From: a virus
Reading direction: 5' to 3' (one strand)
DNA: 24,245 bases
IMG/VR virus record: IMGVR_UViG_3300007871_000001
Coordinates: 1-24,245 of that record
Below, one piece after another: positions 17,133-23,759 of the stretch (positions are counted from its first letter, which is position 1; each line of letters opens with the position of its first letter). The translations under genes and the position numbers were made by a program. The notes beneath the pieces were generated by a model, which saw nothing but the letters and a program-made list of their open reading frames with translations, was not told the origin of the DNA and made no database searches.

Positions 17133-18914
17133 TTAATCTCCTGCCGGTTGTGGTACACCAGTCTGAAAATCCTGATTACGTTGAGTACCTGGTCCAACTA
17201 TCATATTTCCTGCTGAATACCCACTACCATTTTGATTTATTTCGTTGCCAGCCCCTTTAGCCTTACCAGCGTTCTGTGGCCCCATTTGTGCCATCATTTT
17301 CATACGTTTAGCAAATTCAGGATCATTAAACCAATCCATAATTTCATCATCAATATCCATCTGATCAGCCAACGATGTTAGACATCGCTGTGCATTAAAT
17401 TCTATACCTGTCTGTGAGGCTATCATAGCTGATTGCATAATATTTGGAAAGATCTGTGTAGCAAACTTCATTATCAATCCATTCTTAATATTTGGTTCAA
17501 GCCGTGACATCGACCTGGCTTTCAACTTAAATGTAAGCTCAAAGAAATCACCATACCGTTGTTCGGGTGTAAGATACAGTTGTACATGCTTACCGCCGGG
17601 CTGTCGTTTAGACAGTGGTAACTGTATCAATGGGTCAGTATGCAAATACCAGGCTTCTTTACCGCTAATCTCTCCACCACATTCATAAATAAGCTCACGT
17701 TCATCTTGCACTATTACATTAGCATTCGTTTCAAGAATCTGTGCTTGTGTAGCTGTATTAGCATCTGACTTCAATCCAGCCATCTGATCAGGATTACCTG
17801 ACATATAATTATACCAGATTTGTGTCTGACTTAACATCTTTTCGTTGTTTACGTTCTGCCCACCATAGGACATAACCTTAACTGTAGTGGGATCAGCAAA
17901 TACAACGTCACCATCCGCTGCGGTACGCATATCTTCAGCTTCCTCTGATGCCGTTGCATCTGCGACTGTTATATCTTTTTGACGTGACGCTTGTTCCATA
18001 CTCTTAATCATCAGTTCATTAGCAAGATTATGTAAATCATACCACATACTCACTTCTGATATAGGGAGCGGATTATTAGGTACAGGTGGTGCAAACGACA
18101 AGTATGTATATGGCCCTTCTTTTGGCCCATAAAAGGAATCACCTTTTAGGTAGGTGTCAAATATTTTAATATCAGGATCAGGAATAGTCAACATAGCGTC
18201 TGCACCAGGGACATACACTTCCACAACATCAACGTAATCCTCTAATTCATTAATTTCCGTCTGACTAAGATTAGTTTGTGTTAACTTCTCGACCTTGTTT
18301 TTAGCATCTGGGTGAGAAGATTTTGGTAGTTGCATCACCAAGTCACTATCATACTCGTCATCATCAAGTAAGATTTGACGCGGTATTCGATTTCTATCAG
18401 CCACAAATGCAGCTTTCCTGAGTGCCCTGCATGTAGGATCTATAGATAAGTCATCAAGGTCTACAAGATCCGTATAAATTTGACCAGGGTCTATGAACAT
18501 GTCGCCATACGTCAACACTTGACCACTATCAGCGATACCAGTTTTAAAGGTAGAAAAACCAAAGAAGGCACTTACTGCACCACCGCGTAGAATATTCTTA
18601 AAATTAGTTTTCTCATGGATGTCGTCAAGCCCAAGCCCAAGTAGCCACGCATAATCCCGCTGTGCTACAACTTGTGTGAGCACCCTACTCACAGGATTTT
18701 TCATCACAAGATTAGGGACCATAGTACGTATCGTATGGAAAACCAGATTAATAGGAGCGTTGCCTGTCATACCCCTAACAGACGTATAATACTGACCCAC
18801 ATAGGCTTTAATAAACATAGCCCTTGCTTTGCGGTATCGTTTCAGTCTGTTAAAGCCCTCTTTAACTGCTAACGCTATTTTACGCGGATATTCGGCTTCT
18901 ACATTCAGACTCAT
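17133..18914 (-). CDS. Portal protein
   Basis: 593 residues placed between the terminase and the scaffold/capsid genes. The chain runs from an N-terminal helical region (KIALAVKEGFNRLKRYRKAR), through residues about 271-310 (YLSFAPPVPN, then SMWYDLHNLANELMIKSMEQ), to LKSDANTATQAQILETNANV (381-400), a segment of the kind seen in podoviral portals. The C-terminal tail is Gly/Asn/Gln-rich. The portal is a 12-mer at one head vertex through which DNA is packaged and ejected. Its ATG overlaps the stop of the small cysteine gene as ATGA. Confidence 0.8.
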   Translation of the reverse strand: MSLNVEAEYPRKIALAVKEGFNRLKRYRKARAMFIKAYVGQYYTSVRGMTGNAPINLVFHTIRTMVPNLVMKNPVSRVLTQVVAQRDYAWLLGLGLDDIHEKTNFKNILRGGAVSAFFGFSTFKTGIADSGQVLTYGDMFIDPGQIYTDLVDLDDLSIDPTCRALRKAAFVADRNRIPRQILLDDDEYDSDLVMQLPKSSHPDAKNKVEKLTQTNLSQTEINELEDYVDVVEVYVPGADAMLTIPDPDIKIFDTYLKGDSFYGPKEGPYTYLSFAPPVPNNPLPISEVSMWYDLHNLANELMIKSMEQASRQKDITVADATASEEAEDMRTAADGDVVFADPTTVKVMSYGGQNVNNEKMLSQTQIWYNYMSGNPDQMAGLKSDANTATQAQILETNANVIVQDERELIYECGGEISGKEAWYLHTDPLIQLPLSKRQPGGKHVQLYLTPEQRYGDFFELTFKLKARSMSRLEPNIKNGLIMKFATQIFPNIMQSAMIASQTGIEFNAQRCLTSLADQMDIDDEIMDWFNDPEFAKRMKMMAQMGPQNAGKAKGAGNEINQNGSGYSAGNMIVGPGTQRNQDFQTGVPQPAGD

Positions 18915-19042
18915 TTTTTATCCTTGTAGCTTATACATTTCTGTCTAAGTATTTTTGATAGTGCCGTTTCTCTTGTACCTATACTTAAAATTGGACATGT
19001 CTCACGGTGTACACACTTTCTACACTGTTTCTTAGTCGCCAT
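18911..19042 (-). CDS. 43-residue cysteine protein between large terminase and portal
   Basis: A very short gene that fills the space between two essential packaging genes exactly. Its ATG shares a base with the terminase stop (TAATG at 19042) and its stop overlaps the portal start (ATGA at 18911-18914). The translation starts MATKKQCRKCVHRETCPILS and has Cys 7, 10, 16 and 36 plus His 12 (C-x2-C-x5-C-x19-C). That spacing could hold zinc or an iron-sulphur centre, though a complete ligand set is not certain. It is basic (many Lys/Arg), which suits DNA or protein binding. The double overlap is the main evidence that it is real. No family recognised. Confidence 0.7.
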   Translation of the reverse strand: MATKKQCRKCVHRETCPILSIGTRETALSKILRQKCISYKDKK

Positions 19043-20958: not shown

Positions 20959-21332
20959 TCAGTAACGTCCTTAGACACACTATTAATCCGCTTCTTGCTC
21001 TGATCGCCAACTCGGTCAGCTACAGTTCGTCGTTCCTTCTTACCTGGTTCAACAGCGGCCACCCTACCTTCAAGGCGATCAAGCAGCATACCAACATACA
21101 CACGGTCAGGCGGGTGAGCAATATCTGTTAATTCATTATTAACCAATTGCTGTTCGGTCCAACCAAGACCTTTTTTCCAGATTAACCTGGCAAGTTTCTC
21201 AGCTTTACTGATCATCTTAGGGTCGTCAACGCTATCATTAACTTCAGTTTTTTCTTCAGCTATGTCACGCAATAAAGAACTAAGAATTAATCCTGCCCGT
21301 TGTTTCTTTTTTGATCCTTCAGTCTGTGCCAT
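20955..21332 (-). CDS. Probable terminase small subunit
   Basis: 125 residues immediately upstream of the large terminase and overlapping it by four bases. It starts MAQTEGSKKKQRAGLILSSL and includes KAEKLARLIWKKGLGWTEQQ followed by VYVGMLLDRLEGRVAAVEPG. The latter resembles the 'x-IFDRI-[DE]-GR' signature of small phage proteins encoded next to large terminases. Basic segments at both ends suit DNA binding. The call rests on position plus this signature. A TAATG overlap with the protease gene sets the start. Confidence 0.6.
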   Translation of the reverse strand: MAQTEGSKKKQRAGLILSSLLRDIAEEKTEVNDSVDDPKMISKAEKLARLIWKKGLGWTEQQLVNNELTDIAHPPDRVYVGMLLDRLEGRVAAVEPGKKERRTVADRVGDQSKKRINSVSKDVTE

Positions 21333-22078
21333 TATTCTATTCCCTCAGCGTATTGTTCAGCTTTGTATATCGCAAACAATGCCTTGATAGTATCAACTGG
21401 CACCACAAGCCCGACACCATCAGCACCATTATAACCACCCACAAGAATGCCAACGATCTGACCGTTCATACCATATACGGGACCACCGCTGTTACCGGGC
21501 CACGATTGAGCATCAACCTGCATCAGCATCTTCTCTCCGAAGTACCCATCAAAATCTCTGCTGAATCCTGACACTATACCCTTAGTAACAGTGAATCGCA
21601 ACTCGTATCCAAACGGACACCCAATTATGAATACGTCATCACCTTTTCTTAAATCAGACGAACTTCCCGGATAGGAAATTGGTAAAACACCATTAACATC
21701 GAGTTGTATAAATCCGACATCAGAAATCTCAGACCTGTGCCATGATTTTGCAGACCAGAACTCCCGACCATCAGGTAATATGACCTTAAATGTAGCAGCA
21801 CCTTCTACAACATGAGCAGCAGTCAAGACCAGACCACCAGGATCTATAATAACACCAGAACCGGACCAGAGTTTGTAACTCTCACCGCCACCATAACTAT
21901 GTGCGTCAACCTCACCATACGCCTCAACATACACCACTGACGGATTCACTTGTTGTATCACCTGTACTAAACTTGGTCGTTCAGCCGGGGCACAATTTAA
22001 ACGGTTATCGTATTTCAAGATGCCAAGCAACGCTGCTACAACAACCAACAGTAATACAATTCGAGTTCGCGTTATCAT
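21332..22078 (-). CDS. Membrane-anchored trypsin/HtrA-like serine protease
   Basis: 248 residues. A basic start and one membrane segment (residues about 7-21, IVLLLVVVAALLGILK) would hold the enzyme in the inner membrane facing the periplasm. The catalytic triad is complete: H89 in LVLTAAHVVEG, D120 in SEISDVGFIQLD and S197 in SWPGNSGGPVYG. The surrounding patterns are those of the S1C (HtrA/DegP) family, but there is no PDZ domain and the chain ends just after the protease fold. AAGGAG lies just before the ATG. It is placed between a tail gene and the terminase genes. Its target is unknown: a virion protein, a host envelope protein or a superinfection factor are all possible. Confidence 0.85.
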   Translation of the reverse strand: MITRTRIVLLLVVVAALLGILKYDNRLNCAPAERPSLVQVIQQVNPSVVYVEAYGEVDAHSYGGGESYKLWSGSGVIIDPGGLVLTAAHVVEGAATFKVILPDGREFWSAKSWHRSEISDVGFIQLDVNGVLPISYPGSSSDLRKGDDVFIIGCPFGYELRFTVTKGIVSGFSRDFDGYFGEKMLMQVDAQSWPGNSGGPVYGMNGQIVGILVGGYNGADGVGLVVPVDTIKALFAIYKAEQYAEGIE

Positions 22079-22091
22079 TATACTCCTTTCG

Positions 22092-23759
22092 TTACACGTG
22101 GGCCGCGTGACTTATGTCATACCAATCAGACCCGTCACATATTAAAGTCCATCCACCATATTCCGTATCCAATTCCTCATCGTTACCTTTATGTAAATGT
22201 ATGTCCTGACCTCCACCAGCTTCTTCGTGTTCAAGTACGGCGGAAAAGGCAGCGTCACAACTTTTCACGATAATTAATATTTGGTTTTTACGACCACCCT
22301 TAAATCCACCTATGGTAACATCATTAGCTGCACAATCAATCCATAGAATACTAACATCAGTTACATCTACATCATCTGTTGGTCCTTCTGTGCTAAATGT
22401 CCTGCTACCAACACTGATCGCCTTGCCAACATTAAGTGGACCACTTGTATTTGATGCAGGTCGACCAAATCTCGGTGGAACGAAAGCTATAAGGTCATCT
22501 GCATTATTAGGTACCAACCACATACGCTCACCGTCAAATACTGCACTTATAAAAGCAGCATTTTCTTTTCCGTGAGGGTAAGAGATCATACTATTATCCT
22601 CTGGATTCAACTTTACTATATAATCGGAATTTTCCGGTATCAACCAAATACTCTCACCATCAAAGTGACCACCCGAAAACGCTGTAGCACCCTGTCCATG
22701 AGCTATAGCGGTCATCTGACCGTTAGTCGGATTAATCTTCATAATATTCTCGGCAGCATTGGGGACAACCCATACATTCTGACCGTCAAACACAATACCC
22801 TTGAACATATTATTGTCACCCTGCCCGTGAGCATAAGTTGTCATGCTACCATCTGAAGGATCAACCCTCACAATACTGGGACCATCAAACGGTGCCAACC
22901 AAATATATTTTCCGTCAAAGCAGCCGCCTACAAACTTGTCACCACCAGCATCAACACCAGTTATATCATACTGAGTTAACGAACCATCAGCAGGATCTAA
23001 TCTTGTAAGATTATCAGAGTCCCAGGGACACAACCAAACATACTGACCATCAAATATAGCACCCTGATAAGCATCAGCCCCTTGCCCATGAGCAATTGCA
23101 GTCATGCTACCATCTGAAGGGTCCACTTTGATAATATTGTCATCGGCAAACGGAACTAACCAGATGTTTTCACCATCAAACACACCACCAACAAAACTAT
23201 CCGGGTGTGCTGCCATATTATAAGATGTCATTGATCCATCAGACACGTTCACTTTCACAAGATCAGCAGAACCGAGAGGTATCAACCAAATACTCTCACC
23301 ATCAAAAACACCACCACCAAAAGCTCCGGCACCTTTACCGTGAGCATACTCATCCTGTATCGGTCGCCAGGGACAAGTAATAACTCTATCACAAAGAGCA
23401 TGTAAGTCACCCTCAGCAGCAGCTACCGTAATTACAGTAGCAGTATTATCTGTAACTTTCAGCCAGATCCCTAAATCTATGTCACCATTGACATAGCTGT
23501 AAACATACTGACCTACCAGAGCGTCAACTACCCAGGTATCAGCGTCCCTTGTAAATGTTTGAGCAGTTGTTCTGGTGCCAGCGATGGCAGCTTCAGGGGT
23601 AATCTTAGAGTAACCTGGTGCAGACTGCCCTGATGAATTGTTACCAGCAAATCGTTCTCGCTTCCCGCCGTGTACGATAGACCGTATTGCGTTATTACCC
23701 TGAACCTTCAGACTATCAAAATCTGGATTCGGGTAATATGGATATTTAATTATACTCAT
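22092..23759 (-). CDS. Tail/receptor-binding candidate with a seven-repeat beta-propeller
   Basis: 555 residues. The N-terminal part (1-140) is a probable attachment region. It includes a beta stretch near 80-115 like the modules of the adaptor. Residues about 147-427 are seven repeats whose FDG triplets fall at 152, 194, 236, 281, 324, 366 and 408. Each has FDG-x-x-[IV]-W-L-[IV]-P, then [IV]-x-K-[VIL]-x-P-x-DGSMT. A seven-bladed propeller is the natural reading. The C-terminal domain (WTLICDGSDWYDISH at the end) resembles ends of phage tail fibres and spikes. Such a protein could bind a surface sugar or protein. No enzyme motif was seen. AAGGAG precedes the ATG; the stop is 13 bases before the protease gene. 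Confidence 0.7.
   Translation of the reverse strand: MSIIKYPYYPNPDFDSLKVQGNNAIRSIVHGGKRERFAGNNSSGQSAPGYSKITPEAAIAGTRTTAQTFTRDADTWVVDALVGQYVYSYVNGDIDLGIWLKVTDNTATVITVAAAEGDLHALCDRVITCPWRPIQDEYAHGKGAGAFGGGVFDGESIWLIPLGSADLVKVNVSDGSMTSYNMAAHPDSFVGGVFDGENIWLVPFADDNIIKVDPSDGSMTAIAHGQGADAYQGAIFDGQYVWLCPWDSDNLTRLDPADGSLTQYDITGVDAGGDKFVGGCFDGKYIWLAPFDGPSIVRVDPSDGSMTTYAHGQGDNNMFKGIVFDGQNVWVVPNAAENIMKINPTNGQMTAIAHGQGATAFSGGHFDGESIWLIPENSDYIVKLNPEDNSMISYPHGKENAAFISAVFDGERMWLVPNNADDLIAFVPPRFGRPASNTSGPLNVGKAISVGSRTFSTEGPTDDVDVTDVSILWIDCAANDVTIGGFKGGRKNQILIIVKSCDAAFSAVLEHEEAGGGQDIHLHKGNDEELDTEYGGWTLICDGSDWYDISHAAHV
22479..23321 (-). repeat. Seven 42-45-residue propeller repeats
   Basis: Spacing of the FDG triplets is 42, 42, 45, 43, 42 and 42 residues. 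The repeats diverge in loops (for example PLGSADLVKV, PFADDNIIKV, PWDSDNLTRL) while the core strands are kept. Blades 2, 5 and 6 are the closest to each other around AIAHGQGA. Confidence 0.8.

Follow-up and report, generated by a model that had tools for sequence, protein, structure and literature searches.

A conserved short cysteine-containing gene between the terminase and portal genes of an uncultivated phage group, in an apparently variable accessory slot

The window analyzed here, a stretch of 24,245 nucleotides covering positions 1 to 24,245 of the virus record IMGVR_UViG_3300007871_000001, carries on its minus strand a predicted large terminase gene (TerL) and a predicted portal gene, joined by a 132-nt ORF that runs from an ATG at 19042 to a TGA at 18911-18913 (Table 1). 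The profile matches behind the TerL and portal assignments are weak but consistent. The intervening ORF encodes P0001, MATKKQCRKCVHRETCPILSIGTRETALSKILRQKCISYKDKK, a product of 43 residues with cysteines at positions 7, 10, 16, and 36, at spacings of 2, 5, and 19 residues. At the 5′ junction, the ATG and the terminase stop codon have one base in common (TAATG), and at the 3′ junction, the TGA overlaps the portal ATG by 4 nt (ATGA). The sequence and frame coordinates bear out the preliminary description of this locus as to the limits of the ORF, its length, its four cysteines, and both overlaps, the minus strand being a detail left unstated there; its remark that the ORF is too short for default gene finders looks mistaken, 132 nt exceeding the 90-nt default minimum gene length of Prodigal. 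Two genes upstream of terL lies a gene for a trypsin-like protease (21332-22078, minus strand), itself preceded by the gene for a 555-aa repeat protein (22092-23759, minus strand; DUF6923, E 1.4e-7).

Table 1. Coordinates of the features at the terminase-portal junction of the window.
Feature	Position	Strand	Basis
Large terminase (TerL), predicted; GTG start, 638 aa, stop TAA	19042..20958	minus	phrog_2, E 5e-9
Small cysteine gene (P0001), 43 aa	18911..19042	minus	ORF and frame reading
Cys7 to Cys10 codons (CxxC)	19013..19024	minus	sequence; both Cys invariant 7/7
Cys16-Pro17 codons	18992..18997	minus	sequence; invariant 7/7
Cys36 codon	18935..18937	minus	sequence; invariant 7/7
AAGGAT, Shine-Dalgarno-like site of portal, in small-gene codons K40-D41	18920..18925	minus	duplex energy -5.2 kcal/mol, spacing 5
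Portal, predicted; 593 aa	17133..18914	minus	phrog_1216, E 2e-6; SU10_portal, E 8e-6, under Pfam cut-off

The window contains 213 ORFs of at least 30 aa, so that the length of the P0001 ORF is by itself weak evidence; what lifts it beyond chance is that homologues occupy the equal position in other viruses. A search with the window TerL retrieved 22 related virus contigs, with a related small ORF downstream of terL in L002 and L003/L007/L019. Alignment scans added two carriers, L027 and L024, the latter a contig identical to the window (100%) across 5221 bp, and two more (L059 and L150) were recovered via TerL or portal scans alone, independently of the small protein. In addition, two DNA patterns were searched, including (i) a context-blind N-terminal pattern, present in 21 contigs, nine of which encode the family, invariably between TerL and portal (9/9), and contribute one new carrier (L206), the other 12 having no family-coding sequence; and (ii) a Cys-motif pattern without the N-terminus, present in 19 contigs, five of which encode the family, again always in this slot (5/5), the remaining 14 not belonging to it. 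Altogether the family comprises 10 virus records and seven distinct proteins, the window included, the six other distinct homologues displaying 46-60% identity to P0001. When the carrier records were searched whole, each of nine had exactly one copy of the small gene, and none of five large contigs lacking the family in the slot had a copy elsewhere, many of the records being fragments. On this sequence evidence, P0001 is the product of a genuine phage gene that had not been annotated before.

The pattern searches also touched two other kinds of protein. A longer ORF on the minus strand of L223, near 4410-4125, contains CKNCPWFSDCPIL, which resembles the N-terminal motif of the small family; hmmsearch relates this ORF to the family at E 2e-4, a value to be read with the fact that the contig was chosen by that motif, and the TerL and portal of the window's group were not found at the locus. 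A separate family of 41-42 aa, starting with MATK[IL]KCKYCGLT and carrying HESLCPKNPAF near the end, occurs in the virus contigs L198, L199, L201, L207, L208, L210, L212, and L215.

Searches beyond this group returned little. P0001 had no tblastn match in 50,697 phage records even at E 10, and comparison of three family members with annotated phages, and of one with plasmids, gave no credible tblastn match. Weak matches of the L206 protein in Pseudomonas phages are attributed to chance, lying antisense to a long annotated gene in the two records inspected; a third such record carries no annotation. No description of the family was found in targeted literature searches. The window portal likewise had no tblastn match among annotated phages, and the 129 annotated phage records matched by the window TerL all fell below 60% identity, with less than 80% of TerL spanned in every case. 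Judged by these comparisons, the virus group of the window is remote from annotated phages.

The alignment of the seven distinct proteins discloses 11 residues invariant in 7/7, M1, A2, T3, K4, C7, C10, C16, P17, L19, R33, and C36, and a middle region that varies in length. All four cysteines fall among the invariant gap-free columns, an outcome with a chance of 0.003 for random placement of invariant columns, and follow the spacing C-x2-C-x5-C-x15-20-C, with seven residues instead of five in L003. Two of the seven genes (L002 and L150) start with GTG. The preliminary description had expected a conserved short C-x2-C-x5-C frame between TerL and portal in related phages, and had named stop codons or loss of the cysteines in the equivalent gap as evidence against it; the frame is found in all seven distinct homologues (x7 in L003), with no stop codon and all four cysteines kept across their divergence (7/7), and that reading survives.

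Codons 2-21 form a 20-codon N-terminal block with no gaps except for two extra codons in L003. Within this block, frame 0 alone is stop-free among the six frames and attains a similarity score of 1453 vs at most 812 in the other frames, a value reached by none of 2000 column shuffles. Across the whole set of pairs, pS amounts to 0.59 and pN to 0.35, and substitutions at the three codon positions number 254, 211, and 338 in 21 pairs, a third-position excess from a tally in which related sequences are counted repeatedly. Three independent pairs, compared up to Cys36, show no third-position enrichment (32, 33, and 36), and purifying selection therefore looks weak in the middle part; the signal of selection comes chiefly from the N-terminal motif and Cys36. 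In a neutral simulation at 25-40% divergence, 9-16% of single lineages retain an open frame.

The small gene overlaps or abuts both neighbors in all seven cases, its overlap with portal ranging from 1 to 47 nt. A Shine-Dalgarno-like AAGGA, AGGA, or AGGGA preceding portal lies within the tail codons of the small gene in 5/7; of the other two, L150 has a weak site and L003 none. For the small gene itself, the Shine-Dalgarno match is stronger in L002, L059, and L150 than in the window, L003, L027, and L206, where it is poor or lacking. Because the portal ribosome-binding site overlies the tail codons, the conserved tail (YKDK in the window) partly reflects the portal start; the cysteines, unlike the tail, are not explained by it.

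Comparison of the terminase-portal junctions of relatives places the small gene in a wider context. Among 134 distinct junctions (after removal of 13 loci lacking the gene pair and of loci whose 500-nt junction duplicated another), 98 have a gap of at most 36 nt, with no room for a gene, and 36 are longer, a number that includes about three (L041, L054, and L121) that may be truncated or frame-shifted terminases and one of 2184 nt (L191) whose contents are unassigned in the cargo tally. The family occupies seven of these 36 longer gaps, those of L024 (standing for the window), L002, L003, L007, L027, L059, and L150. Other gaps contain (i) Endonuclease_7 genes with several CxxC pairs (L010 and L111); (ii) a GroES-like chaperonin 10 (L101:4248-4553; Cpn10, E 4e-17); (iii) a trypsin-like protease (L090:5914-6558); (iv) phrog_2423 (L061 and L180); and, in some further long gaps, (v) unrelated small ORFs. 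The slots of L051 (5923-6093) and L179 contain a 56-aa protein unrelated to the family, which has four cysteines and ends in CIDYKPNEDD; the L051 protein had no Pfam or PHROG match. Since most relatives are gapless at this point and others carry unrelated cargo, the junction is best described, on this comparative evidence, as a variable accessory slot. The distribution of the small gene is accordingly patchy, and relatives without it, being virus contigs, are presumably viable.

A terminase tree of 127 rows, built by a quick method with nine loci with short TerL matches skipped and L024 omitted as a copy of the window, places eight carriers in two clades. The first comprises the window, L002, L003, and L007, together with L001, the junction of which is cut off; the second comprises L059, L150, L027, and L206. 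The starred branches of the tree force at least three changes, and the gene may either have been gained once, early, and lost later, or have reached the same slot by transfer. No loss was seen within either clade, the gene being kept in 4/4 members with a readable junction in each, counts that include two near-copies (L003 and L007) and one carrier, L206, picked out with the pattern of the family itself. This retention could signal a real need for the gene in those phages.

With respect to function, P0001 had no significant match in Pfam, PHROGs, NCBIfam, PADLOC, or PDB sequences, and neither the first three of these libraries nor the PDB sequences gave a significant match to a known zinc or iron-sulfur family. 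The AlphaFold2 model comprises three short helices at low confidence (mean pLDDT 59.8), and the net charge is +6 to +10 in all seven members. The invariant C-x2-C-x5(7)-C-P...C pattern makes metal binding plausible, and the most economical reading would be a small, basic accessory protein with a structural zinc or iron-sulfur site. We consider it rather probable that the locus holds a real gene for a basic accessory protein with a putative metal site, carried as non-core cargo of the slot and acting as a dispensable late modulator. The four invariant cysteines would probably hold a structural metal, either zinc or an iron-sulfur cluster, that links the CxxC...CP knuckle at the N-terminus with a helix at the C-terminus. 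Ribosomes leaving the terminase gene would translate the small gene, by virtue of the stop-start overlap or abutment and of a weak site of its own in 4/7, and it would in turn pass ribosomes to the portal gene, whose site sits in the last codons in most copies. The protein would occupy an accessory slot and be no part of the core packaging machine, its likeliest role being that of a dispensable late modulator binding nucleic acid or protein via its basic surface.

The preliminary description had instead proposed a tiny metal-binding partner of the packaging motor, a proposal that sits poorly with the 98 junctions lacking room and with the unrelated genes in many other gaps. In its broader form, the small protein would bind TerL or portal as a lineage-specific add-on and tune docking, DNA cutting, or motor stoichiometry. 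The constant position in both pattern searches, the coupled geometry with both genes, and the retention in those members of both terminase clades that were sampled speak for such a partner; a fixed position is equally expected, however, from vertical descent in a slot, and a core motor component would be present wherever homologous TerL and portal occur, which is not the case at these 98 of 134 junctions. The proposal loses weight because most relatives lack the gene, and we regard it as unlikely. A narrower version, in which a lineage-specific partner of the terminase-portal complex binds metal, is made in step with both proteins by coupled translation, and tunes packaging in the two clades, seems less likely again.

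Ranking below both, and improbable, is the possibility that the ORF mainly carries ribosomes from terL to portal and that the peptide is of little importance. The TAATG/ATGA-type geometry and the portal site inside the tail codons fit such a coupler, but the invariant cysteine pattern and the frame-0 conservation are N-terminal, far from the portal start, and most relatives have no ORF at all at this junction. An anti-host or counter-defense effector, carried as optional cargo, is very doubtful: a variable slot with unrelated cargo would suit it, yet tight coupling inside a structural gene cluster would be an odd place for an early effector, and the lack of a match in the PADLOC scan says little on counter-defense, that library being one of defense proteins. 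The least probable and disfavored reading takes the ORF as a remnant or zinc part of the HNH or endonuclease VII genes found in the slot of relatives, of which L010 and L111 do have several CxxC pairs, but neither P0001 nor the six members scanned match an Endonuclease_7 or HNH profile, the cysteine spacing (2, 5-7, 15-20) is unlike a double CxxC, and seven intact copies in two clades are unlike decay.

The preferred reading, that of a non-core accessory protein, has its nearest precedent in SPP1, a phage of Bacillus subtilis whose ORFs 3-5 reportedly separate gene 2, for TerL, from gene 6, for portal. A passage in PMC6316719 describes ORFs 3, 4, and 5 as short, located between essential capsid-assembly genes, dispensable, and of unknown role. 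The likeness is that of short ORFs among morphogenesis genes, and the small gene displays the same combination of a short ORF between TerL and portal that is absent from relatives; no sequence relation to P0001 was found in the tblastn search at E 10, whose 50,697 phage records may not include SPP1. In lambda, gpW is encoded between the terminase gpA and the portal gpB, a likeness in the placing of a small protein. According to a passage in PMC4362835, gpW works at the head-tail connection and is required in lambda. The present gene, by contrast, is missing in most relatives, and its product is cysteine-rich and without a Pfam match; as to membership in the gpW family, nothing in Pfam or PHROGs rose above noise. 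The HNH endonuclease gp74 of HK97, which acts with TerL and promotes cos cleavage as stated in part of PMC9410871, offers a precedent for an accessory phage protein cooperating with TerL, but it is a nuclease and the small protein has no HNH match. A C-x2-C-x5-C iron-sulfur motif occurs in Cas4/AddB-type nucleases and in SPASM-type sites. The first three cysteines of P0001 have the same spacing as these sites, whereas its fourth cysteine is C-terminal, it has no nuclease domain as in the Cas4/AddB type, and no profile supports the relation.

The locus presents a real gene of 43 codons, fitted tightly between two genes of the core packaging apparatus, its four cysteines kept across deep divergence. 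In this uncultivated phage group, the junction of terminase and portal is a slot with exchangeable contents, among them small genes, nucleases, a chaperonin, and a protease, which yields a handful of small proteins open to testing. A role in packaging, if shown, would carry more weight.
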